A DNA stretch of 64,000 bases from Tribonema minus (lineage: Eukaryota > Sar > Xanthophyceae > Tribonematales > Tribonemataceae). A program made the translations under genes and the position numbers. The notes beneath the pieces are model-generated. The model made no database searches. It worked only from the letters and a program-made list of their open reading frames with translations, and was not told where the DNA came from. Below, in pieces: positions 7,974 through 34,124 of this stretch (positions are counted from its first letter, which is position 1; each line of letters begins with the position of its first letter). The DNA lies in NCBI GenBank assembly GCA_017506865.1, contig JAFCMP010000007.1, positions 248,001 to 312,000 on the forward strand, given 5' to 3'.

Positions 7974-9160
7974 ATGCCGTCTTTCAGAGCCGCTACTGAG
8001 GCTCACGAGGCCGAGCGCAAGCACCACACAGTGGCCGCAGATGCGGTTGCTGATGTCAAGCTCATTAAGTGGGCGGTGGGCAACGGTCTTGCCCCTTCTC
8101 TGGCGCATGAGTCTTGCATCCACTGCGGCGACCTTCAAGGCTTGCTCAGGCTTCGCTCGGTCTTTGACCTGCCTATGGGTGCTGGTCACTGTCTGTGGGA
8201 TGCACGTGGCGGACACCTTGAGATGCTGCAGTGGGCGCGAGCCAACGAGTGTTTCTGGTACGAGCAAACATGCGCGGAAGCTGCAGGCGGAGGGCATCTG
8301 GAGGTGCTGCAGTGGGCTCGTGCGAACGGGTGCCCCTGGGATGAGCGGACGTGCACATACGCAGCACGCGGAGGGCATCTGGAGGTGCTGCAGTGGGCTC
8401 GCGCTAACGGGTGCCGCTGGGACAACACCACATGCTACACCGCTGCAAGCGGAGGCCATTTGGAGGTACTGCAGTGGGCTCGTTCCAATGGGTGTCCTTG
8501 GGACAGTCCGTATGCAGCACTGGTGCACGGCACGGACACTTCGAGGTGCTGCAGTGGGCATGAGCCAATGAGTGCCCTTGGAAGGAAGGTGTATGCCGAT
8601 GTGCTGCAGCAAATGGGCGTTTGCAAATGTTGCAGTGGGCCCACGCCAATGGGTGCCCCTGGGATCAGGAGGTGTGTCACATAGCTGCGACGCGAGGAGA
8701 CCTCGCCATGTTGCAGTGGGCTCGCGCTAACGGGTGCCCCTGGGGCACGCCCATGTGCATTTTCTCTGCAGACGCTGGCCATCTGGAGGTCCTCCAATGG
8801 GCATGCGCAAACGGTCGCCCATGGAACTCCGCGACCTGCAGCGCTGCCGCACGCGCAGGCCACCTGGACATTCTCCAGTGGGCGCGCGCAAACGGGTGCC
8901 CATGGGATGAGGAGACTTGTAGCCAAGCCGCTCAAGCAGGTCACCTCGAACTCCTCAAGTGGGCTCACGCCAGCGGGTGTCCATGGGATTGCAGGACTTG
9001 CACCGAGGCAGCGCGCGGGGGCCACCTGGAGCTGCTTCAGTGGGCTCACACGAATGGGTGCCGCTGGAACGTGGAGACCTTCAGGGCGGCGGCGCGGTGT
9101 CGTGATGCCGCGGTGCTGCGCTGGGTGCAAGCCCATGGGTGCCCATCCCACCGAGCGTGA
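7974..9160 (+). pseudogene. Ankyrin-type 27-residue repeat protein, frameshifted and with a stop
   Basis: About twelve units of 27 residues (81 bp) run from about 8205 to 9160, with consensus GGHLEVLQWARANGCPWDE then TCxxAA. This is the divergent ankyrin-like repeat often expanded in algal and protist genomes. The array changes frame near 8508-8510, where WDS-P runs into VCSTGARHGHFEVLQWA only if one base is missing. In the new frame a TGA at 8561-8563 replaces the usual codon after QWA, most simply a CGA to TGA change. Downstream units (NGRLQMLQWAHANGCPWDQ onward) are intact to the stop at 9160. The start is uncertain: ATG 7974 is in the frame of the first repeats. An ATG at 7873 in another frame gives a leader (QHILAFLRPSL) resembling the N-termini of this family, so a further frameshift is possible. 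The gene is head to head with the SDR gene. Confidence 0.8.
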
Positions 9161-12778: not shown

Positions 12779-12802
12779 TCACGCTTTCACCAGTATACGG
12801 CT

Positions 12803-12833
<31 letters not shown>

Positions 12834-15800
12834 AAACGCGCAGCGCTCTCGATGTTGCTGCCGCCGGTGAGTGCTGCTGCGCGAATGTGCCCGTCGCTGA
12901 GCTGCGCGCGCCGCAGCCTATCAGCCTCGCTCTGCGCCACGCGCGTCGCCTCCACGAATGCGCACATGCTCACCGCCGCTGCTGCCACCGCCACGCCGCC
13001 GCCACCGCCGCTGCCGCCGCCACCGCCGCCAGCGAGCGACACGTACACGGTCTTCACGCCCCCCTGTTCCGCATCGCTCTTGCTCAGGAGGCCGTGGTAC
13101 TGGCACGCCGCGTGCAGCAGCAGGCGATGAAACGGCGAGTCGTGCAACGCGACGCCCAGGCGCGCCCCCCCCTTTGGGCCTGCCTGCAGCTGCAAGGGGG
13201 TCCGGAGGGCCTCCGCCAGGGGGTCGGGGGTTGTAGGGGGGAGCGCACGAGCGGTGATGAAGTAGAGTAGGGTGGCTTCCACGGCGGCGACATATGCGCG
13301 CAGCGTCGCGCCGTGCAGGGACTGGGTGACCACGTCGCGCAGGCGCTTGGGAATGCGCGCGAACCGTTCCTCGGCGTCTGCGGGGCAGAGGAGCGCGGCG
13401 GAGGAGGGGAGCGGGGAAGATGAGAAGTGCGTAGAGCCGCGTGGCGAGTGCATGAGTTGTGAGGTCATTCGTAGCTGAGATGTTGCTGTAGGCACGACTC
13501 CAGACAAGTGCAGATCAGCAGCTGCGATCCTTTGCTGCTCGCTGTACATAAGCTAGATGCGCTTTGCCTCATCAACAATGATGGTCACTGTTTGGCGCAT
13601 AGCTGACGGCAAAGAAGGGGGGGTTGATGGTACTCCATGGGGTGGAACAAATGTTGAATGCATTTGGAGCTGAGCAGGTTGGTCGAGCTATTGGTCATGA
13701 CATTCACCTACAGGATGCCTGGCTTCACAAACTCCAACAGAATCAAGATGTTGACATGTGGAGCGCTCGAGCATTTGCAGCAGCTGTGCTTGGTGCAGCA
13801 ACAATGTGCGTTGAATTGTGTGCATTGAATGCTGCTTGCTCCAGAGTGAGGCAGAATCACAGAGCAGCTCACAATGTCACCACGCAGAGCTCAACTGGCA
13901 CCCTGAATGAGCAGGTGCGGCCAACCGCTTGTGGCTCACGAGCCTGCCACAGCAGCATCAGCTAGTCTTCATTGAGCCACTGTTTGTTGTTACAATCAAA
14001 GCAATGCTGCGTGAGCACGAGTGCTAGACAACCCTGGCAGGCCTCTGCAGCTTGCAGCGCAATGCGCTGAATCTCACGCTCCTACGCTGCAGTCACGTGC
14101 TGACCCAGCTCAGCTGCGGGCGCGTGCCACTCTGCCATGCTGGCCTCTCTCAGCCTGAACAGAGCAAGATTGGCAAGGTTATCGTGCGCAGCAGCACAAG
14201 TCCCCGATGCTCACCCTCCTGCTGCATGCCGCGGAACCGGCAGCAACTGCTGAGCGTCACAGCTTCTGCGGATGAGCGCTGCACACAACACAGGCTAGGC
14301 TGCACTCCGCAGCAGGCGCGCAACGCTCCGCTGGTTACCTTCCCAGTGCGTGCCGCGGTACTGCTGGTGGCCGCTCCCGTGGCTGAGCGCTGGAGCAGGT
14401 GCAGCACCCTGCCGCGCGGCGGTGCGCAGCGGAGCGTCAACTTCATCTGCGACGAGGTCGCCGAGGCTGCTGCGCCAGCTGACATCCAGGCTCAGGTGCT
14501 GCATGAGCGATGACATGGCATCCGCGCCGCCGCTGCTGCCGTCGCCGCCGCCGCCGCTGATGGCCTTGTGGATGCCAAAGAAGTTGTCTGCGCCGTGGCG
14601 GCGGGGCGCGTTGAGGGCAGCAATGATGAGCACCACGTTGTGGCCCATGCAAGTAGCTGACATGTGTAGCGATTGCTGTTTGCGAGATGTGGAGAAGCTG
14701 TTCGGTTTTTGCAAACCAAAGCGGTGCCTGCTCATGCGCAAAGGACCGTCACAGCTATTGGGACACGCCCAGGGTCAGTACAGTTTTGGGGCACGTAAAA
14801 ACGCTGTTGTTATTGGTCACCAATAATTGGTGACAGCAGCAGGACTTCTTGAACCTGAAGTTTCTTGAAGTACTGTTACTACTGCAGCTGGAGTTGTCAA
14901 GAGTTCTTGAAGTACTCCCTACGCGCATTCCGTCGGCTCACCAGTGCTGCCGCTTGACTATTTCTGCCCCATATTGCAGCACCTGCATACCAGCACATAC
15001 CGCCACGGGAGAAGTCAGTGTGGCCTTACTTCAGGTGGGAGAATTTGCATGAATTGCTTTAGAGAAGTGAACGAAAGCACACATACCATTGGCCCAGCGC
15101 CGCTGCCGCCGCCGCCCCCTGTGCTGTGACGGCCGCCCTTCCTGCGCCGCCGCGATGGGCGCCGCGTACACGGCGCGCTGCGGCGTCACTGCGCGGCTGC
15201 CGCTCACACGCACGGGCGTAGAGGCCCTGCCTGCCCCAGTTGCAGTGCTCGGCACTGGCGCCAGGCTGTCATCGTCGTCATCGGGGTCGCGGGGGGCGGG
15301 AGGGGGGTCTGGGGGGCTGTAGTCGATGTCCGGGTGGTACCAGACGGCGGGGCTGCGCGGCGTAGGGACGGCGAAGGAGTGTGATGATTGGATCTGTGCA
15401 AGGCGTGATACCCATCATGTCAGGATGCCGACGCAACTGCGTCCAGGTACATTAAAAAGCAAATGCTGGATTCTATGCGTTCAGTTTGGTTCCCATGCTG
15501 CAAACGTGTAGTTGTCACCGGGCGAGGGACGTTGATCCAGGTCTGCAGGGCAAATAGTAACGTTGTGGATTGTGATGCCCGCGCAGGCAGGTGGAGATTC
15601 ATTCTCTGATCTACAGCTGATTCAGGACGAGGCTCTGAAACAGAGAAGAAGCAGTGTTGAGACAGAAATGGGGCAGCAACTCGGACTGTTGTTCATGCAG
15701 TCTGCTTTGACCCCTGATTGACTCATGCCATGGCATTGCAACTCAAGCATTGCTTTCGTCAACTGGTGCGTGCATGATGCTCCTTGAAGTTTCAAGACGC

Positions 15801-16123: not shown

Positions 16124-17921
16124 ATGGCGATCCCTGCGTCTGCTGCGCCGGAGTCAATGCCATCAGTAGCGTCAGATTCACATGCAGCTGGCGAGAGTGA
16201 TGATCCAGCAGCGGCAAGTTCTCCGCAGAGAAGAGCACCGCCATTCGATGTAGCAGCACTGGCGATTACGGTGGCAGGAGCACCGCCACCGCCAGCGACA
16301 GCAGCGGCACCCACAGCTGCCACCTCTGGCGATGGTGACGGGTTGACGATACTGTCTTCAGCGGAGGATGGAGCCGCGGAGGGCAGCGCTGGTGCATGTG
16401 GAGATGATGGCGATGATGCGAAATTCTCAGGCAAAACACTTTGGGCGGAGTTTAAGACTCTGTCCTGGCTGTCGCTGCCGATCATGGTCACCATGATCAG
16501 CCAGGCAGGCATGGTGGTGACCGATCAGGTGAGCATGGAGTTTCGACTTAACTTGGCTGCTTTGCAACATGCATTTACTTTTGATGCTAAGGTGTGACTT
16601 CTGACAGAGCCTTCTGAAGCACTCGAGAACCTCAACTTCTCACCGGCAACATTGCAAGGCAGTCCATTGAGCAGCATTTTCAGTTGACGTGATGACTTTC
16701 GTTGTGTGCGCTGACGCGCAGAGCTAGGTTCAGAGTGGGAAACTGCCGTCGCGGTTGTGCCTGCTGACATCGTGGTGTTAGCGGTGCTGCCACTCCAGTG
16801 CGGCTGATGCATGAAACTCAACTGCCAAACCATCGATGCTACCGTAATTTCCACGGAGTATGAAACCCCCCTCTTGTATAAGATCCCCTGTTGTTTACTG
16901 TGGTGTTAGACCCCCCGTTTCCCTACTGAGGTGTGTGTGGGTCCGCAAGACCGGCGGTACGCTGTCTAAGACTGGGGTGAGCACGTGTTGTATAAGACCG
17001 GGGTTGTAGACGAAGGAGCAATCAGTCGCACAAACTTCAAGTCATTTCGGCATAATCTCGCGCGAGGGACACGTGTGGCACAGCGTGAAAGCAGGTGGTG
17101 CGAGCCGCGTTGCTGCGACATCCCTCAGCAGCCGTGAGCTTGCAGTACTGTGAGCTAGGCGTGCTAGCGCTGGAGCTGCAGAACCATATCTTCTGGCCTG
17201 TTGCTTTCATGCTGCAGTATACGTCACCGATATACGCAACCGCAGCCACTCACGCGCATGCACGGGGGGGGTTACGCCGCAAAAGACTCCTTTCCGAATA
17301 AGACCCCCCGTTGTCTGAACATGGGCCTCGCAGCGCGAGTAGGCTGGGGGGGTAGGGGGGGGGGGATACTCCGTGATTTATGGTGCTAGCATTGTAGGTT
17401 CTGTACTGCGAGCAAGCGGCTCGGGTGGCAAATTAATGACTCGCTTGACACAATTGCGCATCCCAATAGCCCATCCTAAGAGAAAAAGTGACACTCCGGC
17501 ATTGCAGTCAACACCCCATTCTTGTCACAGCACAATCTTGCAAAGGCAGAAGTTTGCGCCACATATTCATCAACACTGTACACCAGTTCTCAATCAAGCG
17601 CACTGAGACATAATGACTACTTCCAGTGATGTGTTGACATCCTGGATCACCAACAGACCCTGACCCTGACTCGAGTTGACTCACTTCCAGAGCGCTGCCA
17701 CCATCAAACTGCATGAGGGTGATGCAAATGGTCGTGTAGTATGCACGCCTCAGTGTTGTGCTCCTCCCTGCTCGCACACCTGGCAGGGCACTCGCAGTGT
17801 CATTGTTAGAGCTCAAACATAAAAACTTCAAGCCCTGCCATCATTCTTTCCTTACAAGTAGAACCAACCTGTTGAAGACCTCAGGTGACCCAATTGCACC
17901 CCCCGCTCACACACATGCGCG

Positions 17922-17952
<31 letters not shown>

Positions 17953-20900
17953 ATCAAAGTAGTATCATTCCTCCACTTCCTGAACCTTAACCTTTACCCC
18001 ACTTTTTTTAAAAGCACTTCATACCGAATCTCTGTACCCCCGCACACAAACACACCCCAGGTCATGGTGTGCCAGCTCACAGGCACTATGCAAGTGCGCA
18101 CTCCGGCGCGACCATGTGTTCAACATGCTAAGCGCTCTTCTCTGTAGGCTGAACTAAACTCCACTGCTCCATTACTTTCAACTGTACTTTTGTCCCTCGC
18201 CTTGTGGGCTTACTTCTTAAACTCTGCTGTACCATGTACTTCAATCCTACCCTTGACCCTTCAACCCCCCCTCCCCACAAACACACACATACACACACCT
18301 TTTTTCAAATCGGGGGTGCTCAAGCGATGGTGGGCCAGCTCATAGGCACCACGCAGGCGCTCCCCTTCCACCCCCTTTGTTGATCGCTCTACTCTGTGGG
18401 CGGCTACTTCAACTCCAGTGCAACACATTCTTCAACTCTGCCTATGACCCTCACCCCCCCCCCCCCCCCCCCATTCTCATTCGAAACTGGCGGTGCTCAG
18501 GTGATGGTGGGCCAGCTCATTGGCACCACGCAGGTGCTCGCTCGGCAACACATGTCGTGCGCTCTACCCTGTAGGGCGGTTACTTCAACTCCACTGCTCC
18601 AGTACTTCAATTCTACCCATGACCTCAGCCCCCCTACTCACACTTCTATTCTGAAACCGGTGATGCTCAGGTGATGGTGGGCCACCTCATAGGCACCACG
18701 CAGGCACTGGCCGCCGCGGGCGTCGGCAACACCATCTTCAACATTGTCTGGTACATCATCGTAGGCGCCGCGTCAGCGCTCGACACCATGGGCAGCCAGT
18801 CCTGGGGCGCAGGCGACCAGCCCAGCCTGCACAAGTGGGGCTGCGTCTGCGGAGTGACGCTCCTCGTGATGAACTTGGGGGCAGCACTCGTGCTGGCGCT
18901 GGGGGAGCCGATCGCGCTCGCGCTGCACCAGACGGCGGAGACGGCGGCGATGGTGGGCGTGTTCTGCCGCCTGCTCATACCGGGGATGCCGCCGCTGACG
19001 CTGGCCATCATACTGCACAAGATGCTGCAGGTGCGCTCAGGGCTAGGGTTAGGGCAGGGTAAGGAGTTGATCGGATTGGGGTCAGGGTAAGGATTAGGAT
19101 CAGACCGAAGGCGGCTATCATACTGCACTAGGTGCCGCATGTGCGCTCACGGGTAGGGCTGACTGGCCATCTTTCTGCACAAGGTGCTGCAGGTGTGCTG
19201 CGGGTCAGGGGCTGAGCACGGAACTGGTCGGGTTGGGATTAGGGTAAGGGTTAGGATCAGGCCCAAGGTGGCCGCGGGTGCGCTGAGGGTCAGTGGTCGG
19301 GGCTCGGGGTAGGGTTACGGTGGTGACGGTGTGGGTGGCGGCTGGGTAACGTGGCTGTCACACTGCGCATACCATGCTGCAGGCGCACTTAAAACTTAGG
19401 CGTTCAGGTTAGGATTAGGGTTAGGGTAAGGTTAGTTGGCAACTCATGCCGATTTACCTGCAGGCGTGGTGAGGGTTGGGGTTAGAGCTAAGGTGGCTGT
19501 TACACAATCAGACGGCACAGCACGCTGCGCGTGCACTCTTTCCATACCGTGTCGTTAGCGTTGGGTTAGGATTAGGGTTAGGATTAGGGTTAGACTGCGG
19601 CGTCGCTGCACAGGCAGCAGAGTTATTGGCGCATCACTCTTCGGGAAATGCATCTTGCCATAGCGGCAGCTTTGAAGGCGCCGTCACAAGGTGTCGTTGC
19701 TGAGAGAGCTTAGGGTCAGATTTGGGTTAGGGTCAGATTTGGGTTAGGGTTAGGGTTAGAGTTAGATTAGATCTGGTTGCCTTGAGGCGGGCGGTGACAA
19801 CAGTCAAGAAAGCGTCTGCAGGACCAGGGCGTAGCTGTCGCCTGATACCCTCAATCCCCTTTGCCCGCGTGCCTGGGCTTTAGAGGGCTTCAAAGATCAC
19901 TGACAGTCACTTTGCCACATCACCACGTAATCAATGCCTGCCCCTACCCGCAACGGCGTCACTCCCCCCCCGCAGGTCCAGGGGCGCGTCGCGGCGCTCA
20001 TGCTCACCTCCACCTCATGCGTCAACCTCGGCGCATGTATACATACTTAACCCCACCCCAACTATAACTTCACGCGCCGCAGGTCCAGGGCCGCGTCGCG
20101 GCGCCCATGGTCATCTCCGTGGCGACCTTCTGCGTCAACCTCGGCGCGAACGAGCTCTTCATCCGCGCGTTCGGCTTTGAGGGCGCGCCCACCGCGACGT
20201 CCGTCTCGCGCGCCGCCATGCTCCTCTTCACGCTCGCGTACCTGGCCTGCGCGCCGCTCGTGCCGGCGCACCCGCAGCGCCCCGCCGCGCTGCTGCGGAA
20301 GGTTCCACGCTTCTGGCAGGGGCGCGGCGCGTTCCTCGCGCTCGCGCTGCAGGGTGGCGCCATGATGGGCCTCGAGGCGAGCAGCTTTGACGTGACGACG
20401 GCGTTCGCGGCGCGGCTCGGGGAGGTTGAAGTTGCCGCGCACGCCGCCATCATCAGCATCGTCAGCTTCACGTTCTACAGCTTCCCGTTCGGCATCTCCA
20501 TCGCGTCGTCAATACGCGTGGTGAGTCGCCGCTTGAAAAACACTTGTTGAAGTTGAAGATGAGGTCGCCGCGCACGCCGCCATCATCTGCATCGTCAGCT
20601 TCACCTTCTACAGCTTCCCGTTTGGCATTTCCATCGCGTCATCGATACGCGTGGTGAGTCGCCGCTTGAGTAACAGTACATGTGGCTCTGTGCGCAGGTA
20701 GGCACAGGTGAAGTTGAAGGTGTTGCGCTGCTGGACTTGCACGCAGCAGGGTACTTTGTCCAATAGCTTTGGATTTCAGCATGCTTCACAACCTCAACTG
20801 CCGCAGCTGACTTGACGGTGACTGGTGACCCTCCCCACTGTGCTGCTGACGTGCCACAGATGCTGTACAATTTCAACTTGAGATGTGTGACTCTCCCTCT

Positions 20901-23340
20901 GTGCTGCGGACGTGCCACCTTTTTTGCCACAGGGCAATCTGCTGGGTGCCCAGCGGCCCCACCTCACACGCTTCTTGGCTCCCACTTCAAAATATTTTGT
21001 ACCTTCAACTGCTGCAGCGATCGTGACGGCGACTCTCCCCGCTGCGATGCCTCCATGCCAACTGCCACAGGGCAACCTGCTAGGCGCCCAGCGTCCCCAC
21101 GTGGCACGCGTCTCGGCTTTAACTTCAAAATACTTGGTAACTTCAACTGCAGCTGATGGTGACTCTCCCCTCTGCGCCGACGTGCCACTCCCGCAGGGCA
21201 ATCTATTGGGCGCCCAGCGACCTCATCTGGCGCGTGTCTCGGCGTTCATCGCTGTCACTGCGGGCGTGCTCTTCATGTTCATCTGCGGGATCATCATGCT
21301 GTCCGCGAGGGAGGTGTTGGGAAGGCTATTCACCAGCGACGAAGACGTAGTGGACGCGATTGCGGTCATTGCGCCGCTGGCTGCGCTGTTCCAGGTACAG
21401 TGCACTGACCTCCCTTACAGTCCACGCTGCACTCACAATGTTCAGCGAGTGGTCTCACTTCAAACCTCGACTTCAAACCTCGCGTTATTGCTGCGTCTGG
21501 AGCTATAAACTCGTGGCACACATGCTTGTGCATCAGACTTTTGGGTTTCAGCAGCAACTGAATGCTGCAGATATGGTTGTTCTTGCTCCAGCTCAACCAG
21601 AATGTCTCCTTGCCTGCTGGTTGTCTTTGAACATGCACAGGTGTACTCTGTGTGCTAATCGGGTGTCATACACAGCAACGCGACAGCATGCACCTCGCAA
21701 TGGTTGAAGCGCAGAACTTCAGTGTTGAAAGCAAATGTTGCTGGTGCACGTAGAAAGTGACTGCAACGTGGTGGCTGGCACATGCGTTATAGCAGGAATG
21801 TGCAGGCAAACTCGTACCACTGGGGGCGTCATTCCACAGCACGCACTTGCTTATACTCGTCGAAGCATAGACCTTCGATGCTGGAAGCAAATATGGGTCG
21901 TTGCACTTGGAGACTCACCACAGTGTGGCACATGCGCCATAATGTCTTACGCCTCCGCCTGCCTGCCTTGTTACGCACGCAGGTGTTTGATGGCACCATG
22001 GGCACCACAGCAGGGGCTCTGAGGGGCATGGGCCGACAGAAGGAGCTGCTCTACTTCAACATAATAGGTATGTAGGTATGCACAGGGTTAACCCAGTCTT
22101 GCACTTTATGTATGGCTTGCGTCAGTGTGGACACCCTCACAGTTGAACTCGCTGGTGCGATTTAAAATCTTGCACTGTTGGCGATGGTGAGGAGAGTATG
22201 TGCTCCAGTGCATTGCGCTCAAACACTCAAAGAGCGAGCTGCTCTACTTCAACATCCTAGGCATAAAGGTATGCGCAGGCGACTTGGCGCTTGCACTTGA
22301 TTGAAGTTTACATTGTTGAAGTCTAGCAGCCTTGATGAGGTGTGCGCCTTCGTCCTCCGCTGCCCTGAACCAGGCACACCCACCACCCTCAACCTCGCAA
22401 ACTCCGCTCACAGTGCATCATGCCGATGCAGGCCTGCGGAGCGTGGTTGATGCGCACCAGTGTTGCAACAGGTTGTGGCCCTGAAATTACGCTGATCTCT
22501 CGCAGGGCTCTGGTGCGTGGGCATGCTAAGCGGATACCTACTAGCCTCCGCAGCACTGAACCAGGCACACCCACCACCATCATCGACGTCGCGAACTCCC
22601 CTCACAATCCATCATGACGCTTCGCTGTCTCGCAGGCCTCTGGTGCGTGGGCGTGCCGAGCAGTTACCTACTAGCCTCCACTGCACTAAATCAGGCCCAG
22701 CCACCACCATGAATCTCATGAACTCCCCGTGCGTGGTTCTTGTCTCTGCAAAACTCGTGATGCAACGTGTCGTGACCCTGAGGTATGCGCTGCTCTCTCG
22801 CAGGGCTCTGGTGCGTGGGCGTCCTGAGCGGATACCTACTAGCCTCCACTGCACTGAACCAGGCACGGGTATATGCTAGCCTCTGTTGCACTGAACCAGG
22901 CACAATGCCATCATTACCTAGCAACCTCCACTCACAACAATTCATCGTGACGCGTTTTTGACGCGTTTTTTCTCGCAGGCCTCTGGTGCGCGGGCGTTCT
23001 GAGCGGATACCTACTGGCCTTCACCGCAGGCCTCGAGCTGCGCGGCCTCTGGACAGGCGTCTGCCTGGGCGTCTTCACCACAGCGATGCTCAACCTGGCC
23101 GTGCTGCTGCGCGTCAACTGGCCCCTCGAGGCGCGACTCGCCGCCATCAGAACGGACACCGTGTCAACGCTGACAATACCGGCATCGCCGTCAGCGGCCG
23201 AGGTTGAAGGGCACGAGCGCGCTGGAAAAGCAGGATCCAAAGAAAGTTCGCCTACGCAGCTTTCTCTGCGAGGTCGGTCGTCACGAGTAGAGGGGAGGTC
23301 GCCGTTAGAGTCGTCGCCGCAGGCAGCGGTGGTGGCATAG
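16124..23340 (+). CDS. MATE-family multidrug/toxin extrusion transporter
   Basis: The six exons are 16124-16528, 18671-19030, 20083-20520, 21197-21394, 21983-22067 and 22979-23340, all in phase, giving about 616 aa. After a roughly 115-residue acidic, Ala/Pro-rich N-terminus the MATE fold starts at LSLPIMVTMISQAGMVVTDQ and VMVGHLIGTTQAL. Further family landmarks are MGSQSWGAGD, RLLIPGMPPL with HKMLQ, GLEASSFDVTTAFAARLGE, SIRVGNLLGAQRPHLARVSA (spanning intron 3) and GTTAGALRGMGRQK. Twelve membrane segments are expected. The protein should export organic cations or metabolites against a proton or sodium gradient; the substrate and membrane are unknown. Introns 1, 2 and 4 start and end at AG|GT. 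Most exon edges have tandem decayed copies in the adjoining introns. Confidence 0.9.
17917..17955. repeat. (GC)n-(CA)n microsatellite in MATE intron 1
   Basis: An alternating purine-pyrimidine tract, GCGCGCGC followed by about 12 CA units. Confidence 0.9.
18057..18710 (+). repeat. Four-copy array of the MATE exon 2 acceptor edge
   Basis: The real exon 2 (start 18671) is preceded by three decayed copies of its start beginning at 18061, about 18324 and 18501. Each reads like GTGATGGTGGGCCAGCTCAT followed by AGGCACCACGCAGG. Two of the three decayed copies have a CAG immediately upstream. Spacings are 263, 177 and 170 bp. After each decayed exon piece comes TACTTCAACTCCACTGCTC-type sequence and a C-rich tract. 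Confidence 0.9.
19031..20035 (+). repeat. MATE intron 2: donor-edge copies, TTAGGG-like arrays and a duplicated exon 3 edge
   Basis: Decayed copies of the exon 2 end (CATACTGCACAAGATGCTGCAG) occur at about 19118, 19168 and 19360. Telomere-like TTAGGG/TTAGGATTAGGG runs lie at about 19405-19430, 19563-19592 and 19712-19760. At 19975-20035 the first 60 nt of exon 3 are copied with a CGCAG acceptor, 108 bp before the real start at 20083. Confidence 0.8.
20548..20670 (+). repeat. Near-exact copy of the MATE exon 3 end with its donor
   Basis: About 120 bp copying 20415-20537, including GCGCACGCCGCCATCAT and ATACGCGTG|GTGAGTCGCC, displaced by 133 bp. The copy carries few substitutions. It therefore offers a second equally good donor site. 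Confidence 0.9.
20931..21120 (+). repeat. Two decayed copies of the MATE exon 4 acceptor edge
   Basis: Copies of GGCAATCTGCTGGG with the upstream CCACAG acceptor start at 20933 and 21071; the real exon starts at 21197. Each exon-derived piece of about 50 nt is followed by ACTTCAAAATAYTT and CTTCAACTGC, then a new intron end. Confidence 0.9.
22495..22880 (+). repeat. Three copies of the MATE exon 6 acceptor edge
   Basis: Copies begin at 22506, 22636 and 22804 before the real exon start at 22979. All keep the CTCGCAG acceptor. They read in the correct phase as GLWCVGxLSGYLLAS-like peptide followed by LNQA, so they are plausible alternative last exons or fossils of them. A shorter fragment is at about 22867. 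Confidence 0.9.
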
Positions 23341-26335: not shown

Positions 26336-28410
26336 TCAGCTCCCGTCGATGAAGGTGAGCACTCGCGCTGCAGCGGCAGGAGGGTGCCAGAATGTGCCTA
26401 CACGCTCTGTAAGGAAAGATGATGTATGGTGGAGCGTGTAGATGAGATTGGTGAAATGCTTGTCGCCCCTTGCTGCCCTTCCTCGATAGCGTCCGGCAAA
26501 ATCCTGCAATTGCGCAATCAGCTCATCTGGTTCGGGAGCGTCAACTGGGCAAATAAACTCCACCATACCATTGGCCTGTACATGCACCACATAGCCATCG
26601 CAACTGTCAGTTGATGTCTCATTCCAAGCTTTCAGAGACACCTTCACAATATCACCCTTGGCATAGCGGCATGGAGTGCGTGGCAGCGTTGAGGCTGCTG
26701 GCGTTACTGGCTTGTCAGCTGCGTCACGGGTGGAGGTAACTCGCTTTTCCTGTGGAACGTTTGTAAAAGGGGGTGTTTCCACCACTGCATGCCTCTCTTT
26801 CACAAGCTTCAGTCTACTGCAGTGGATGTACTTCAACATCACCTGACCCTGATGCGTTGCACGCAAGACATAAGTGTCTAAGCCCGGTATACGCCTCTCT
26901 ACTACAAAAGGGCCCAGCCACCGATCTGCCTTCAACTTACGGCTTAGACCTTTGCGCACAGGCGGATAATGGACTAGTACTGTATCACCGGGTTGGAAGC
27001 GCCGCGCATAGCCCTGCTCCTTTGCTGCTTCTTCGCGCAGCCTCTCCTCCTGCTCTTGAAGCGATGATTGGACCAGGCGGTAGCCCTCCCGTATAGCGTC
27101 ATGGGAAGCCTCCAGGTGCTCCGCGGCAGTACGCCACCTGTTGGACTTAGACACACGTATATCTCCTAGCATAGCCTCAAACGGCAACAACGGCTCGCGA
27201 CCGTACAACATGCGGAAAGGTGACATGCCATAGGTGGTGTTAGTGCAAGCGCGGTGATTGAAGAGGGCCTGCGGGAGCACACGATCCCAGTTGCGTTGAT
27301 TGTCTTCTACAAGCATGGACAAAATGTTCACAAGTGAGCCATTGGTGCGCTCAGTGAGACCGTTGCATGCGGGGTGGTAGGGTGAAGTGAAACGTTGCTC
27401 AACGCCCAGCAATCTGGTCAGCTCTTTCATCAACGCTCCCCTGAATTCTTTCGCATTATCACACAGGAACATCTGCGGGCACCCATGCCTAGGTACTATT
27501 TCACTAACGATGATGCGCGCTACCGTCTGGGCTGACTTATCAGGGATTGCAAAGGCCTCCGGCCACCTAGTGAGGTAGTCCGTGAAAACCAAAATAAAAC
27601 GGTTGCCATCGTCTGATGTTGGCAGAGGACCTACTATATCAAACCCTACCAACTGGAATGCATGTTGCAAATCAATATCTCCAAAGCCATGTACCCTAAT
27701 TCGTGCATCACGCCTTGACTTGCGCTTCTGACACGCCATGCAAGAAAGCACCCAATGAAAAACATCCGCATACATGCCTGGCCAAAAGTACCTGCGCCTA
27801 ACCTTGTCATAGGTGCGAGCAAAACCACTGTGGCCTCCCCCGATTGCACCGTCATGACACTCAAGCAACACGCGCTCGCGCAGAGCCTTTGGTATAACCA
27901 ACAAGTCTGTCCCTGCCCTGTGTGACCTTCCCCCTGCAGCAATATACATCTTAGCTTCGCGCAAATAATAACCTGCACGTTCAAAAGCACGCGCCTCTTC
28001 AACTTCAACTGGGGTTAGACCATGAGCCCTACTACTGGCTTTTGCTTGGAGGTATTTCACAACCTTGCCAAGCACTGGATCGCTGCCCAAAGAATCCGCT
28101 AAGTCACTCGACTGAAAAACTGGACGCTGCCGCTTCTTAAACTTTAATGAACCACCTGTTTCTTCGTCACTGTCAAACTCGTCTCCATCGTCCAGCGTTG
28201 GTTCTCCTAGGTGATCATCTTCGCCCTCTGGCCACAATTGCGCCACCGCTGTCATGCTGACCTGCACTCTCGAGCACTGCACTCCACCTGTCTTCTCAAC
28301 GTCGCTAAAAGCAAGAACAGGCACTGCAATTCTTTCTTTGGTGTCAGGTGTGGGCCTCTGCACGCCCCCATTCTTTCTTTGGTGTCAGGTGTGGGCCTCT
28401 GCACGCCCCC
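26336..28410 (-). CDS. Integrase (retrotransposon pol 3' part)
   Basis: The frame is open from the 41-bp duplication to 26336, about 675 codons. The ORF shown from 28363 begins with an in-frame repeat-derived Met and is probably not a real start. An H2C2 zinc-binding region (ECHDGAIGGGH, then SCMACQK) lies near residues 168-210. The DDE catalytic set is Asp in GFDIVGPLP, Asp in LCDNAKEF and Glu in NGLTERTNG, with the last two about 35 residues apart. A GPY/F-type module (RWLGPFVVERR) lies near residue 486. The C-terminal 150 residues have no chromodomain that I can see. Its job is insertion of the cDNA into the host chromosome. It is out of frame with the upstream polymerase because of the duplication at 28329-28412. 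Confidence 0.9.
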
Positions 28411-31400
28411 ATGCAGCGAGGTCTGCGCTGCATTCACAGAGAGGTCAACACCTGCAGACATCATGACATAAGCACCGTCCCTGATACGAGAGAGAGCATC
28501 TGCATTACCATTCTCTTTACCAGGCCTATGTACTATATCCATGTTGTATTCTTGCAGTTCTGATATGTAACGTTCTTGCCGCTTAGTTCGCGGTTCTGAG
28601 CCACCCATGAGATGCGCTAGCGCAGAGTGATCAGTTTGTAGAGTGAACGTGTTGCCATTATGCAAAAACTGCCTGAAGTAGTGAACCCCTTCCACGGCCG
28701 CTAGCGCTTCCCTATCATAGGTGCCGTAGTTGCGCTCGGCAGTTTTTAAAGTCCTACTATAATATCCTATGGGATGCTCACCATTGACAGGACAAATTTG
28801 CGTCAGCACTGCTCCAACTCCATAGTCTGAAGCATCTGTTTGCAATACCAGCTTGACTGTACCATTAAGGATCCCTTTCAAGTCTGGATGAGCTAGCACA
28901 GGGGACGTTTTTAGCGCCTCCTTCAAAACCTGCCAAGTTGCTACACAATCATCAGAAAGCTCAAACGGCACACCTTTGCGCGTGAGGTTTACCAGGGGCT
29001 CCGTGATTGTAGAAAAATTGGAAATGTACTGCCTATAATATGCTGCCATACACAAAAAGGAACGCACATCATGGAGGTCAGTGGGAAGTGGTATTTTGTC
29101 GATGGCTGCCACTTTTGATGGGTCCACACGTTTACCTCGCGCATCCACTATGTGGCCCAGAAACTTGACCTCTTTCATTGCGAAATGACACTTTGATGGC
29201 TTCAGCTTGATACCAACTGAGAGCAAGCGGCTCAGCACTACCTTCAAATGCTTCATGTGTTCCTCGAAAGTCTTGCTGAAAACCAAAATATCGTCCACAT
29301 ACACTAATGCATACACCCACAACGCATCATGTCCCATGGCCAACTGCATCAGACGCTGAAAAGTAGATGGCATATTCATGAGCCCCATGGGTCCAACCTT
29401 CCATTGGTAGCACCCCCATTTGGTCTGAAATGCTGTTAGCGGCCTGGATTCTCTATCAAGTTCAACATGCCAGAATCCAGCTACCGCGTCCATAGAGCTG
29501 AACCACTCAGAGCCACTCAACGCTGAATGCACCTCATCAATGCGTGGCAACGGAAAACCATCCTGGCCGCTGCCCTTTTCTTTGACCGCTTGATTAACCG
29601 CCCTCAAGTCTTGCACTACTCGCAGTCCCCCATCCGGCTTGGGTATTATCATCAAAGGGGAGTTCCAAGGCGAATTTGACGGTTCAATCACACCTTTCTT
29701 AATCAAAAAATCTATCTCCTTCCACAGCACTTCAAGCTCCTTCAAGCTGTACTTGCGCAATCTTGCACGTACTGGTCTAGCATCCCCTACATCAATATGG
29801 TGACGGACCAACGACGTCTTTCCGGGCCTGCCATCAAATGAGAAGATACCTTTCCTAGCCATGCTACGCAGCAAATCCGTTAAAATTTCTTTCTGCTTGT
29901 TTGTAAGGTGATCCAATTCCCCTATTTTGAACGCGGCAAACCACTCCAACTCCCGCGCTCGCTGCACTGCTTCTTCGTCCGTACACTCATTGACAGGTTC
30001 TGTACCTGCGCCAGTGTCAACACCAGGTTGCGATTCTACATCAATCTTTGCTTCCTGTTTAGTTCCAGCGTGAGTTTCTGAGACTGCAGTGCAAGAAGTT
30101 TTCGCTGGTGGGGGCTCTGCAGGCGGTCGTACCCCCGGTACCGTGCCTGCTACAGGGATTGTTCTGTCATCAGCAGTGCTCATCCCCTCAACTTCAACTT
30201 GGCGCCCCCAACCATGCGCACTACTCTGCGCAAACAAATTCTCCGCAGCTGTTCCATTTATGGCCCCTTCAGACTGTGCACGTGCTTCCGCAGGCGTGAC
30301 ACACCCCATCGCTACCATGAAGCAGGCTGTGGCCAAACGATCATTGCGTTCAACACTCGCTATCCTGGCTTTGACCGCTGCCAATTTACTGTCACGCGCA
30401 GGTGTATCAGTCTGTCTCAACGACTCCGCGGACAGCTTCAGCAAACTGCGTGTAATGCCTACTTCATGTTGGTGTACCTCCTTCTTCCACATCCGCTCAT
30501 CCAACAAGTGTAGATGCCCCACTTTAACACCCGGTTTCAGCTTACCGGTACGCTTCACAATAGTGATGTTTATAGTGCTGGTTTGATTACCTTCTTCCAC
30601 CAACACTCGCTGGCGCCGCACTGCCCAGTGCCCCTTTGGGTCTACTACCCCTTCTAGCACATAGTTGCCCGGCGGCACCCACCCTGTCCACGTCACCAAC
30701 ACTGCAACTCCTGCTGTTGTAGGTTCAGTTACTGGGTATTGTTTGGCAACGCGTACTGTAGCTTGCTTGTGCGCCGATGCGCCTTGCTCAGCAACTAGCA
30801 GAATATCGTCCCACCCTGGCAATTTTGCATTGGCGGTAGCGGCTACGCCTGGGTCTTCTGACATGTGATTCTTGCCCAAGCGCTCATCAAGCTCATCCAT
30901 CACTTGGTTGTATGCTTCCAACATTGTCATCTTACCTGGCGTGCGCGCCCCGCCGCTGCGATGGCCTTCAGCGTCTTCACCGCTGGCGTCGCCGTCGCCG
31001 TTGCTTGCGTCTTCACCGCTGTCCGCGTCGGTGCTTCTTGCCGTGGTGCTGGTGCTTGAAGTTGAAGTTGAGGTAGAGGTCGGCTGTGGTCCTGGCTCGC
31101 GGTTGTTGTTGCCAGCGCTCTTGACCGAGCCCTGCATGTGCCGTAGCTTGCGCAAAAATGGCGTGCTAGGCAGAGAGGAGGCAATGAGTACAGGCCCCAC
31201 GAGAGTGCCGCCCTGACGGTGATCCTCAGGCAGTGCATACGGGCCAAGTGTCTGCACAAAAATGCCATCCTCAATGAGACGCGACGCCGCTGGGTGCAGG
31301 CGATGCTGCGTGTCAAACAACACAGGCTCAGTGCGCAAGATGCGCACAATAAATGACATGACTGGTGCCAGCACGATCTGGCCACAACCTTTTGCCAGGG

Positions 31401-33027
31401 CAGTCTGACTGACCCCCGGCGGCACCTTGATCCACCACAAGCCGTTGGCTCGCATCACGTCAGCCTGCGAGGGGACATACCGCTGTGAGAGCGAGAACTC
31501 AATGTCACCTCGACGCATGTGGTCGTCTGCAGGCTGGCGAAACACATGGAAGTGGCGTGAAACGAGAGTGGGAGCACTGCGCTTGGCGTCATGTGTCCAG
31601 CGAGCTGTGGCATTGCGCGGCGGCAGCACATACACAGGGTTAGACACGCCCCACATTTCACCAGGGTTAATCTGCACTCTCTCCTGCTTGTGACCGCCAT
31701 ACTTGGCCTCCTCAATCCTGCCTGCCACTGTACGCAAGGTGTCTACAACAGTTTGGTCTCCCCTGGTGATGAGAAAGAACACGCGATTGCGCAGGTTAGG
31801 GAACCCTAGGTCTGCACCTGAGAGCTCAAATGACAACACATGGTATCCTGCCTGGTGCGCATGCTCAATCGCCAACTGCCCGCTGATTGTCTCGCTGATC
31901 TCTGGCACATTCTCAATCATCAGGCATTTCACGCCTCGCTGAATGGCTTTGTCCACCAACTTTGGGGTTACCTGATTTGCTTCTGCATCAACTCTGATCT
32001 CCCCAGCTGGCTTGAAGCGCTGTCTGCTGGCGCCTTCACAACGGGTGCTGGCAGTTACTAGGTCAGGGTCTATCTCCATAATCCTGTCCCACACCTTATT
32101 AGATGTGTAGTCTGCCACCAGCAAGGGCACGTTGGGGTGAGATGCGCGAAAGATGGCAGCATATGTATCATCTATCTCCACTGCCAATGCTACCTGCGCC
32201 CCTCCCATAATCGCACCTTTCACGGAGCTGCCAATGCCCGCCCCCAAGTCTACCACTGTGAGGCTTGACACGGTCATGTGCTCAACGTTTGGGTACTCAC
32301 CGCGCTCCACTGGTGAAATTGCTGCCCACCTGTCTGGGTGGCAATCCTGCACTGCCCAAGTTGACCCCCCCTTTTTGTCGTAGCACCCTGAGCGCCTATC
32401 TGCATCAAGCTCAGCAAGCGCCACGTCAACTTCAACTTCAACTGTCTCATCACAAGACTGAGTGCGCGCAGCATCGAGCTCCATGTCACTGTCGTCTGCT
32501 GAATCTTCACCTGACATCTTTGTCCAGTCTGTCTCCTCCACATACCTGTCAGCCGGCTCTCCGTCCTCTGAGGCACTGTCAATCGACTCTGAGCTGACCG
32601 ACATTACCTCACTCAACTCACCGTTGTGCCAGTGTCTGTGCTGCACGTCTACCTCCCATCCCGCTTTCGGCAGATCATCCACCCTGATTACCCTCTCATC
32701 ATCAACACTGTCAAGGTCAATAGGTGGTTGCATTCGCTGCGTGCCCTTGCTCAACACAAACTTCGGGCCAGGCTCACCATTCTCCGCACGCTCCTCCAAC
32801 AGCTCCGCGGGCAGCGACCCATACTCAAACTTCAACACCGAGCCTAGGTCAACTGCAACTTCGGCCGACTGTACTCCCTGTTGGTTGCCAGCATTGCGCG
32901 CGCTACGCCATTGGTCACGCTTGGCTGCTACCTCATCAGGGGTCAGCGACTTGACTGCTTTGTAAGTCAGGATGCTGTACCATGGCAGGCGAGCGACTCG
33001 TGAGCATGTCCAACCGCATACGCGCAA
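28252..33027 (-). CDS. DNA methyltransferase - reverse transcriptase - RNase H polyprotein
   Basis: This is a 1,591-codon open frame; its first codon is TTG, so it is expected to be reached from the upstream protease frame. Residues about 254-567 form a C5-cytosine methyltransferase: motif I VVDLGAGIGSS (256-266), AVEIDD, catalytic Cys330 in STRCEGAS, ENV at 372-374, a QxRxR-like LRNRVFFLI, and a motif X-like GCGQIVLAPVMSFI. A Ser/Thr-rich linker follows, with STSTSTS made from the GAAGTT hexamer. Reverse transcriptase starts near 1075 (KKGVIEPSNSPWNSP, PMGLMNMPSTFQRLM) with the active site YVDD at 1243-1246. RNase H follows from about 1390 (TDASDYG, YDREALAAV, TDHSAL, NADALSR). The last residues after the 41-bp repeat are out of frame. 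The enzyme presumably copies element RNA. The methyltransferase role is unproven. Confidence 0.93.
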   Translation of the reverse strand: MRVCGWTCSRVARLPWYSILTYKAVKSLTPDEVAAKRDQWRSARNAGNQQGVQSAEVAVDLGSVLKFEYGSLPAELLEERAENGEPGPKFVLSKGTQRMQPPIDLDSVDDERVIRVDDLPKAGWEVDVQHRHWHNGELSEVMSVSSESIDSASEDGEPADRYVEETDWTKMSGEDSADDSDMELDAARTQSCDETVEVEVDVALAELDADRRSGCYDKKGGSTWAVQDCHPDRWAAISPVERGEYPNVEHMTVSSLTVVDLGAGIGSSVKGAIMGGAQVALAVEIDDTYAAIFRASHPNVPLLVADYTSNKVWDRIMEIDPDLVTASTRCEGASRQRFKPAGEIRVDAEANQVTPKLVDKAIQRGVKCLMIENVPEISETISGQLAIEHAHQAGYHVLSFELSGADLGFPNLRNRVFFLITRGDQTVVDTLRTVAGRIEEAKYGGHKQERVQINPGEMWGVSNPVYVLPPRNATARWTHDAKRSAPTLVSRHFHVFRQPADDHMRRGDIEFSLSQRYVPSQADVMRANGLWWIKVPPGVSQTALAKGCGQIVLAPVMSFIVRILRTEPVLFDTQHRLHPAASRLIEDGIFVQTLGPYALPEDHRQGGTLVGPVLIASSLPSTPFLRKLRHMQGSVKSAGNNNREPGPQPTSTSTSTSSTSTTARSTDADSGEDASNGDGDASGEDAEGHRSGGARTPGKMTMLEAYNQVMDELDERLGKNHMSEDPGVAATANAKLPGWDDILLVAEQGASAHKQATVRVAKQYPVTEPTTAGVAVLVTWTGWVPPGNYVLEGVVDPKGHWAVRRQRVLVEEGNQTSTINITIVKRTGKLKPGVKVGHLHLLDERMWKKEVHQHEVGITRSLLKLSAESLRQTDTPARDSKLAAVKARIASVERNDRLATACFMVAMGCVTPAEARAQSEGAINGTAAENLFAQSSAHGWGRQVEVEGMSTADDRTIPVAGTVPGVRPPAEPPPAKTSCTAVSETHAGTKQEAKIDVESQPGVDTGAGTEPVNECTDEEAVQRARELEWFAAFKIGELDHLTNKQKEILTDLLRSMARKGIFSFDGRPGKTSLVRHHIDVGDARPVRARLRKYSLKELEVLWKEIDFLIKKGVIEPSNSPWNSPLMIIPKPDGGLRVVQDLRAVNQAVKEKGSGQDGFPLPRIDEVHSALSGSEWFSSMDAVAGFWHVELDRESRPLTAFQTKWGCYQWKVGPMGLMNMPSTFQRLMQLAMGHDALWVYALVYVDDILVFSKTFEEHMKHLKVVLSRLLSVGIKLKPSKCHFAMKEVKFLGHIVDARGKRVDPSKVAAIDKIPLPTDLHDVRSFLCMAAYYRQYISNFSTITEPLVNLTRKGVPFELSDDCVATWQVLKEALKTSPVLAHPDLKGILNGTVKLVLQTDASDYGVGAVLTQICPVNGEHPIGYYSRTLKTAERNYGTYDREALAAVEGVHYFRQFLHNGNTFTLQTDHSALAHLMGGSEPRTKRQERYISELQEYNMDIVHRPGKENGNADALSRIRDGAYVMMSAGVDLSVNAAQTSLHGGVQRPTPDTKERMGACRGPHLTPKKELQCLFLLLATLRRQVECSARECRSA
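28329..28412 (-). repeat. 41-bp tandem duplication that breaks pol
   Basis: Two exact 41-bp units (28329-28369 and 28370-28410) encode the peptide core GVQRPTPDTKER. As 41 is not a multiple of three, the second unit shifts the frame between RNase H and integrase. The two flanking frames differ by exactly the offset a single unit would explain. Confidence 0.92.
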
Positions 33028-34124
33028 TGGTGCTGTAGCTGAGCAGGAACTGAGGGTCGATTTGGTTGCTCACATGAAAGTCAACTTGAGCTGAGACGCC
33101 CGCAATCTCCACCTGCACAGTCACCATAAACATCACTGCTACCAGGTGCCTGCCAACCCCACGAATCGCCTTAAATGTGGGCTGGCGCTGGGATTGCTCC
33201 AAACGCACTGCCTGCTGCGCCGTCTCTGCCCTGTCTCTCAGCTTACGCAACAGAAGGCAGTATGCCCTGAACTGCATCACATCGCAGCCTGCGCACGAAT
33301 CCAGATAAACCACTGCAGGCATGACATTGTGAATCTGCGCCTCTACCATGAGCACCACTGGGGCCATCCTGCCAATTTGGCCACCAGCATCAGCACCTGC
33401 CACGCAGACCAGACTACTCACCTCTGCTACCTCATCATCTGCCACGAAGCAGCAGCACTCAGCGAACTTGTCGGGGTCGCAGCTCAGACACACCCGGCCT
33501 GCCGAGGGATCCCACGCGAAGTAGGTGCGCGCCGAGAAGAAGTACTCTGCCTCGTTGTCCGCCCCCACGCCTAACGCAGTGGACCACGTGGGCGCAGTGG
33601 GGCCTACTGCTGGCCTCTCGCCGTGTACAATTGCCAGCACAGCCTGCACCAACTCAGGGGAGAGACTGGAGGGATCAAGGGGGAAGTTGTTAGCGACACG
33701 AGCCCCCCCCCCGGTGTTGGAGATCAAACCCCCGTTTGGCCTGGAGTTGATGTTGCCCCCGATGTTGGGCGCGGCGCCCCAGCCCTGCCTGCCGTAATTG
33801 GGCGGGCCCTGGCGGTTGCCAGCAGGGTAGTATAGCTGCCTGTGAGGAGCGGTTTGCAGAGGAGCACCGTGACGTTGACTCATTGCGCGGATAAGTGAGT
33901 CAAAACGCTGGTTCATGTCACTGGCATGCTGTTGAAGATGGGAGCTGAACCTGTCCAGCGCTGCATTCCACGGAGTTTCAGCGTTAGTGTCAGTAGCCCG
34001 GGTGTTAGGCACAGCGCCGCTGCCGCCCTGCGTGGCAAGAACGTCAGCCCCAGAAGCGCCGCCCTCAGAGTTTTCCGACTCAGATTCTGACCCGCCACCA
34101 CTAAATGCATATGTCGAGCCCCCC
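32936..34124 (-). CDS. Gag C-terminus and aspartic protease region
   Basis: The frame opens before 34012 and is best entered by a -1 shift at the six-G run (minus strand of 34119-34124). From there an acidic linker (SGGGSESESENSEGG) continues naturally into PNTRATDTNAETPW. A retropepsin-like segment has YLDSCAGCDVM, where D-S-C-A stands in place of the usual D-T/S-G-A, and a later QFLLSYSTIARMRLDM resembling the hydrophobic-hydrophobic-Gly region. It should cleave the polyprotein. The Gly to Cys change in the active-site loop is unusual, so activity is uncertain. The frame ends at 32936 after overlapping the methyltransferase frame. Confidence 0.65.

Follow-up and report, generated by a model that had tools for sequence, protein, structure and literature searches.

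The question raised by this locus is why the introns of a gene should contain extra copies of the exon ends that flank them. The sequence analyzed (the window, 64,000 nt, C7:248001-312000) was taken from one 158-Mb assembly of the xanthophyte stramenopile Tribonema minus, and the gene in question encodes a MATE transporter. An earlier reading of the window (the original prediction) held that nearly every MATE intron carries such copies and that introns across the genome grow in this way. The observation itself, exon-edge copies within introns, is confirmed, and the interpretation given with it is partly supported. The pattern is probably due to recurrent tandem duplication from the live junction, the one in use, which would lengthen pre-existing introns in a subset of T. 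minus genes.

The MATE coding sequence consists of six exons that join in frame to 1848 nt encoding 615 amino acids, and its introns (2142, 1052, 676, 588 and 911 nt) are all of the GT-AG type. The same exons were obtained by spliced alignment of the protein P0001 and by ab initio prediction, MATE being part of the training set of the latter. P0001 is a transcript-derived protein (an open reading frame of a Trinity assembly in EukProt) that is 97% identical to MATE over the full length, and its strain appears to be close to, and not identical with, the T. minus reference strain. It aligns without gaps across all five MATE junctions, and the intronic copies are absent from it.

Copies were sought by aligning exon edges with the adjacent intron. 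In MATE, copies were found at 7 of the 10 edges and in 4 of the 5 introns, which bears out the statement that nearly every intron is affected except for intron 4, where neither edge has a copy; the remaining edge without one is the donor of intron 1. The seven edges score between 40 and 95, and in the shuffle comparison that had been proposed with the original prediction the score of each was reached by none of 200 dinucleotide-preserving shuffles, the highest shuffle score in the whole MATE test being 32. None of eight mid-exon control probes reached 40; one of them (the middle of exon 3 against intron 2) scored 25, which 4 of 200 shuffles equalled. The alignments cross the junction and include the donor or acceptor region. 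Spacing was predicted to be 100-180 bp and is mostly 107-193 bp, but one interval of about 54 bp and one of 265 bp fall outside. The copies in intron 1 lie at offsets of -610, -345 and -170 from the live edge of exon 2, and a 170-bp tandem array is found at 18317-18705. Runs of a TTAGGG-like repeat are also present in MATE intron 2 (19391-19770), and another GGGTTA run is found at 47116-47147.

Some of these copies have been annotated as coding sequence. Two extra peptides in the NCBI model P0002, 15 and 30 residues long, duplicate neighboring exon edges; the first corresponds to the exon 3 start copy in intron 2, and the exon 3 end copy in intron 3 (about 91% identical, GT intact) forms part of the second. 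The model of a MATE paralogue, P0004, has three insertions that repeat exon edges, so that peptides from intronic copies were present in 2 of the 5 public T. minus models inspected (P0002 and P0004; not P0003, P0005 or P0112). The copies also give an indication of relative age. All three exon 6 copies read GTG (Val) at a codon that is GCG (Ala) in the live exon, and Val occupies the same residue in P0001 and in the paralogue proteins aligned with it (P0003-P0005). Most simply, then, the copies would be older than the change from Val to Ala in the live exon.

Genes elsewhere in the assembly were predicted with a two-strand ab initio model tuned on four homology-backed genes, which replaced a first ab initio gene finder that had fused whole loci into a single gene. 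The model recovered 44 of 46 splice edges with 10 extra ones, an optimistic figure since these were its own training genes. Most gene models are ab initio and without transcript support, and homology supports MATE, the MATE paralogues and an RDH gene. A predicted gypsy element (26339-36522), genes with a coding score below 15, introns beside an exon scoring below 6, and introns shorter than 60 or longer than 5000 nt were excluded before counting, and genes without an open frame were omitted from the codon analysis. In the first set of 86 introns, where 60 nt of each exon edge was aligned with the adjacent intron and local scores of at least 32 were counted, copies were found at 49 of 172 edges (43 and 42 when the threshold was raised from 32 to 36 and 40), compared with 1/172 in reverse-complemented introns, 1/1720 in the introns of other loci (10 introns drawn per edge, with MATE-family loci not compared among themselves) and 1/388 for mid-exon probes. 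The extended set of 126 introns, comprising the first 86 and those of loci added later, gave 70/252 edges against 1/252 in the reverse complement, with 54 of the introns affected.

By origin of the locus, 12 of 22 introns were affected in the window, 18 of 39 at loci found via MATE homology, and 10 of 16 at loci found via ALDH or AAA homology (0/4, 5/6 and 5/6 by gene). At fixed positions picked blind to sequence the figure was 14 of 49, including 6 of 8 in the RDH gene, the region of which was extended by 6 kb after its repeats had been noticed; without RDH it was 8/41, and the first ten fixed positions alone gave 1/17. The inner junctions of RDH agree with the NCBI model and with the protein of another alga (Chrysoparadoxa). 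Copies were seen on contigs C7, C445, C223, C548, C19, C334 and C124, and weakly on C23 (one edge, score 34), and misassembly of the MATE locus alone was therefore not borne out. They occur in 18 of 44 genes, and in 16 of the 28 better-supported ones (two or more introns, a coding score of 60 or higher, no stop). The forecast of a genome-wide process at most boundaries thus stands as to its spread over several contigs, but not as to its frequency.

Genes differ in how strongly they are affected. Across 33 genes the chi-square for heterogeneity was 60.4, compared with a mean of 32.1 and a maximum of 60.2 in 2000 label shuffles, and genes at the same locus can differ (2/4 against 0/8 edges at L033). 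Within the 28 better-supported genes, edge-copy frequency tracks the local repeats internal to introns (rho 0.77, p=1.4e-6), is inversely related to exon length (rho -0.55, p=0.002), and shows no correlation with the GC content of introns (rho -0.05). A weak relation to GC content at third codon positions (rho 0.45, p=0.015) had been 0.65 in a set of 33 genes and was 0.49 in all 44. Copy-bearing introns are longer: the median is 1185 nt for the 33 introns with copies and 674 nt for the 53 without (p=5e-5).

The anatomy of the copies was recorded for 138 copies at 64 edges, using exon probes limited to 120 nt. The exon part has a median length of 50 nt (20-120) and 89% identity to the live edge, and in Smith-Waterman alignments it abuts the exon border exactly in 106 copies and within 2 nt in 119. 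The splice dinucleotide is retained in 62 of 73 donor copies (GT) and 42 of 46 acceptor copies (AG), or 104/119 together. There are one to six copies per edge, spaced at a median of 150 bp (10-90% range 110-225) with a peak at 120-140 bp (40/138), and spacings or arrays of 129-131 bp recur in unrelated genes. In the 86 introns, median splice-site scores were 6.07 for donor copies with GT and 5.69 for live donors, and 5.31 for acceptor copies with AG and 4.77 for live acceptors. In 32 of 80 cases the score of a copy equals or exceeds that of the live site from which it derives.

The duplications were dated relative to paralogues and to the transcript strain, all DNA being from T. minus. At 25 of 34 edges with several copies, similarity to the live edge is greater for the nearest copy than for the farthest (p=1e-4), and similarity between copies and the live edge (0.898) exceeds that among the copies themselves (0.862). 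Because the nearest copies are usually the most similar and the relation to the live edge is star-like, repeated birth from the live junction would fit better than copying of copies. Among the MATE paralogues, 18 of 19 copies are closest to their own exon rather than to that of any paralogue, the exception involving two close paralogues, which indicates that the same edges were duplicated independently. The paralogue at L009 has the corresponding MATE introns and copies at none of its 10 edges. By this comparison the introns predate the copies, and what took place would be intron growth and not intron gain. Gain of introns by AGGT duplication, which the original prediction had mentioned as a proposed route, was rejected on the same ground.

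Under the favored explanation, short segments spanning the junction would duplicate in tandem, repeatedly, at a spacing of mostly 110-225 bp and typically about 150 bp. Each round would copy the live junction, placing the new copy beside the live edge and pushing older ones deeper into the intron. The outermost junction would stay in use as the only one contiguous with the rest of the exon, and the inner copies, freed from selection, would decay as intron sequence, most of them keeping intact, strong splice sites, while the pre-existing introns become longer. The original prediction had likewise described recurrent growth by duplication of boundary-containing segments with later decay of the exonic part, and this portion of it held up. 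At the DNA level the step would presumably be tandem duplication via slippage, flap misprocessing or unequal exchange, and the inner sites are presumably ignored by splicing in genes other than MATE as well. If some exon parts are more alike than the intron flanks, this may be due to subsequent exchange with the live exon.

Matches over the whole duplicated unit are consistent with this explanation: the intron side matches over 195 of 195 positions at an offset of 195 in L034, over 117 of 117 at an offset of 117 in L017, and over 163 of 170 at the offset of 170 in MATE intron 1. Plain tandem duplications, in which match length equals offset, are present as an 85-bp unit in L033 (85/86), a 101-bp unit in L025 and a 131-bp array in L017; these count as repeats of the sampled DNA and not as exon-edge copies. 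Local repeats in 174 kb number 169 direct and none inverted, the direct ones including an ankyrin-repeat gene. By the classes of the gene finder, local repeats cover 22% of the bases in introns, 6.3% of those between genes, 9.5% of those in exons and 6.7% of those in elements. Private changes point to decay of the copies, with nonsynonymous to synonymous counts of 177/119 for changes found in a single copy and 15/26 for those of the live edge (p=0.007). Indels in the copies break the frame in 40 of 44 cases (4/44 are multiples of three), and the 88 copies examined contain seven in-frame stops.

Several results weigh against tandem duplication as the whole explanation. The intron side of the copies is far less similar than in a simulation of tandem duplication followed by neutral decay (score per base 0.11 against 0.45 at 92-97% exon identity, under one simple mutation model). 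Some near-identical copies end sharply a few bases into the intron, as in L034 (50/50 at offset 124) and RDH (68/69 at offset 196). When copies are compared with live edges, the ratio of nonsynonymous to synonymous differences (pN/pS) comes to 0.30 (bootstrap 0.23-0.35), below the value of about 0.5 expected for copies that are neutral from birth and a live edge under constraint. Events that cross the junction make up 63-86% of the total, depending on the cut-off, against 26-29% under a uniform distribution, an excess due in part to easier detection; an earlier version of this test (0.88 against 0.26) had omitted internal repeats overlapping edge copies and was replaced. Finally, no copies were found in 12 of the 28 better-supported genes, examples being the L031 gene and the L009 paralogue of MATE with 0/10 edges each. 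For the loss of similarity inside the intron and the junction-crossing excess, possible reasons are faster decay of intron sequence, exchange of exon parts between the live edge and its copies, the greater ease with which copies containing exon sequence are detected, or a junction-specific process; the two results together hint at such an additional process.

One form of this process would dispense with the tandem unit altogether: a transcription- or splicing-coupled event at the junction, such as template switching or RNA-templated repair, would insert a short fragment of exon edge with a few intron bases into the intron. The sharp ends just mentioned belong to five pairs in L034 and RDH that are 94-100% identical and contain only 4-37 nt of intron, and these, the excess of junction-crossing events, the differing genes at L033 and the enrichment of local repeats in introns over intergenic DNA all agree with it. 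Yet the whole-unit matches and the regular arrays of 129-170 bp exist, the intron flank is usually still related to the live flank (60/89 exceed the 99th percentile of the null), and gene conversion or faster intron decay could yield the same sharp ends, so that copying of this kind is considered unlikely as the general explanation. A broader proposal is that the junction itself is a hotspot for transcription- or splicing-coupled copying, gene by gene, with introns growing like a conveyor along an inward age gradient, and that exon stuttering (described below) would then be a general eukaryotic mutational process and not something particular to the dot chromosomes of birds. This we put forward tentatively and with more doubt than confidence; if true, the cell would be faced with as many as seven candidate splice sites at one edge (six copies and the live one) and would have to pick the outermost.

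That the copies are kept by selection as alternative or poison exon edges might be supposed from the strength of their splice sites, from the public models P0002 and P0004 that treat them as coding, and from the overall pN/pS. This is nevertheless very unlikely, as none is used in the transcript-derived MATE protein, the indels and stops disrupt the frame, changes private to the copies have a higher nonsynonymous to synonymous ratio than those of the live edge, and GT and AG are retained (39/47 and 30/33) close to the 0.84 calculated for neutral decay from codon-position differences. An artefact of assembly or annotation, to which the largely ab initio gene models lend some color, can hardly be credited: the median difference between a copy and its live edge is 11%, too much for simple assembly duplicates, and the pattern recurs in genes backed by homology and on several contigs. 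That a repair pathway had simply been lost was also considered and rejected, as no obvious loss was seen among the two types searched for, MutS-family exons (13 matches) and XPG/FEN1-type nuclease exons (5 matches) both being present. At C554:318868-319347 two MutS matches overlap in the part of the profile that they cover. Their starts are 285 bp apart, and the second match, which contains three stops, is possibly another decayed exon-edge copy.

The original prediction knew of no comparable genome, but a precedent exists in chicken, the exon stuttering of Hron et al. (2026; PMC12954441). The T. minus pattern is a variant of exon stuttering in a distant eukaryote, and stuttering is the closest known system. 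In chicken, 236 introns in 115 genes are affected, 190 of them on dot chromosomes, where they make up 3.4% of the introns; extensive intraspecies polymorphism in intron length is described, and birds and, as data not shown, gerbils are reported. Both systems have imperfect direct copies of the exon edge that cross the border into the adjacent intron, from one to several at a given edge; in both, a paralogue lacks them and the introns are rich in local repeats. The exon part measures 20-187 bp (median 36) in chicken and 20-120 nt (median 50, limited by the probe) in T. minus, and the number of copies per edge is 1-44 and 1-6, respectively. Over 90% of the chicken copies adjoin the exon border within 1 base, and in T. 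minus 40 of 63 blastn-short matches do so within 1 nt and 119 of 138 Smith-Waterman copies within 2 nt. The chicken cases lie mostly on dot chromosomes and are linked by the authors to GC-rich genes; those of T. minus are spread over several contigs, uncorrelated with intron GC and weakly related to GC at third codon positions. When the chicken screen was imitated (blastn-short with minima of 42.1 bits and 20 nt, without the authors' manual review), 28 of the 86 introns were positive, and none after shuffling. A search of titles and abstract openings found no report of exon-edge copying in an alga, and absence from print is not claimed.

Other processes resemble the pattern in part. Introners produce genome-wide changes in introns and leave similar sequence in the introns of unrelated genes. 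The T. minus edges match their own intron and not those of other loci (the 1/1720 probe-intron pairs given above, a comparison of exon-edge sequences and not of whole introns), and introners were rejected. In tandem exon duplication, including mutually exclusive exons, a whole exon is duplicated, the frame is kept and both copies are used. The T. minus copies are likewise local duplicates of coding sequence, but they are partial exons with a broken frame, unused in the transcript-derived MATE protein, and this candidate was also rejected. In the potato RdRp case of intron gain by tandem duplication (PMC4974935), the duplication can cross the exon-intron boundary; in MATE, by contrast, there is no new intron, and the copies sit inside introns shared with L009.

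Stuttering, described mainly from bird dot chromosomes, is extended here to several contigs of a stramenopile alga, without a correlation with intron GC. This speaks against any explanation in which dot chromosomes or a high GC content of introns are required, and the process can be studied in a smaller genome. Since every copy preserves the exon edge as a fossil, the growth of an individual intron becomes datable from within. A splicing problem is posed as well, as the decoy sites roughly equal the real one in strength. In the gene models publicly available for T. minus, duplicated peptides may be intronic copies, and tandem peptide repeats in the proteome therefore need checking.

The original prediction had named four further genes of the window as carrying copies, and these were found in all of them: at 2/2 edges of the PSP1-like gene (one at threshold), 5/10 of the GPCAT-like gene, 1/4 of the EamA gene and 2/8 of the unknown gene on the minus strand. 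The names PSP1 and GPCAT are those of the original prediction; a Pfam search gave no match for the former gene and no family in the exon tested of the latter. Edge copies were absent from the SDR gene (0/4 edges), the SURF1 gene (0/4) and the gene at 12782-14648 (0/2). Coordinates are given in Table 1.

Table 1. Genes of the window with exon-edge copies, and positions of the copies (window coordinates)
Feature	Position	Strand	Details
MATE transporter gene	16124-23340	+	Exons 16124-16528, 18671-19030, 20083-20520, 21197-21394, 21983-22067, 22979-23340
MATE intron 1, three upstream copies of exon 2 start and acceptor region	18058-18092, 18290-18361, 18474-18534	+	
MATE intron 2, downstream copies of exon 2 end and donor region	19113-19157, 19158-19210	+	Offsets 110 and 164
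MATE intron 2, copy of exon 3 start and acceptor	19970-20034	+	Offset -107
MATE intron 3, copy of last 94 nt of exon 3 and 22 nt of intron	20560-20675	+	Offset 133
MATE intron 3, two upstream copies of exon 4 start and acceptor	20887-20964, 21028-21120	+	
MATE intron 5, copy of exon 5 end	22236-22279	+	Offset 193; GT decayed to GC
MATE intron 5, upstream copies of exon 6 start and acceptor	22498-22553, 22628-22685, 22796-22853	+	
PSP1-like gene	2064-2240	-	Donor-edge copy 2064-2130 of live edge 2170-2240; ab initio model
GPCAT-like gene	42015-43717	+	Donor copy 42210-42310 of live edge 42064-42164 (exon 42015-42154); ab initio model
GPCAT-like gene, repeats	about 42804-43580	+	Period 129 bp; copies of the exon 43564-43717 start are among them
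Unknown gene	53621-54483	-	Acceptor copy 54436-54483 of live edge 54312-54359 (exon 54123-54352)
Unknown gene, donor-side copy	53621-53820	-	Copy of 53977-54172, the stretch holding the live donor edge
EamA gene	59169-59660	+	Repeats about 59224-59556, including copies of the start of exon 59610-59825

The window also contains a Gypsy-type retroelement on the minus strand (28252-33069, with 26336-28384), with integrase domains in an adjoining open reading frame. In its polyprotein frame the reverse transcriptase and RNase H are preceded by a C-5 cytosine DNA methylase domain (PF00145, E=2e-9); methyltransferase-bearing retroelements exist in other algae. The ankyrin-repeat gene (8201-9078; Ank_4, E=8e-16) contains 81-bp repeats and gives rise to several self-matches that are unrelated to the exon-edge copies.

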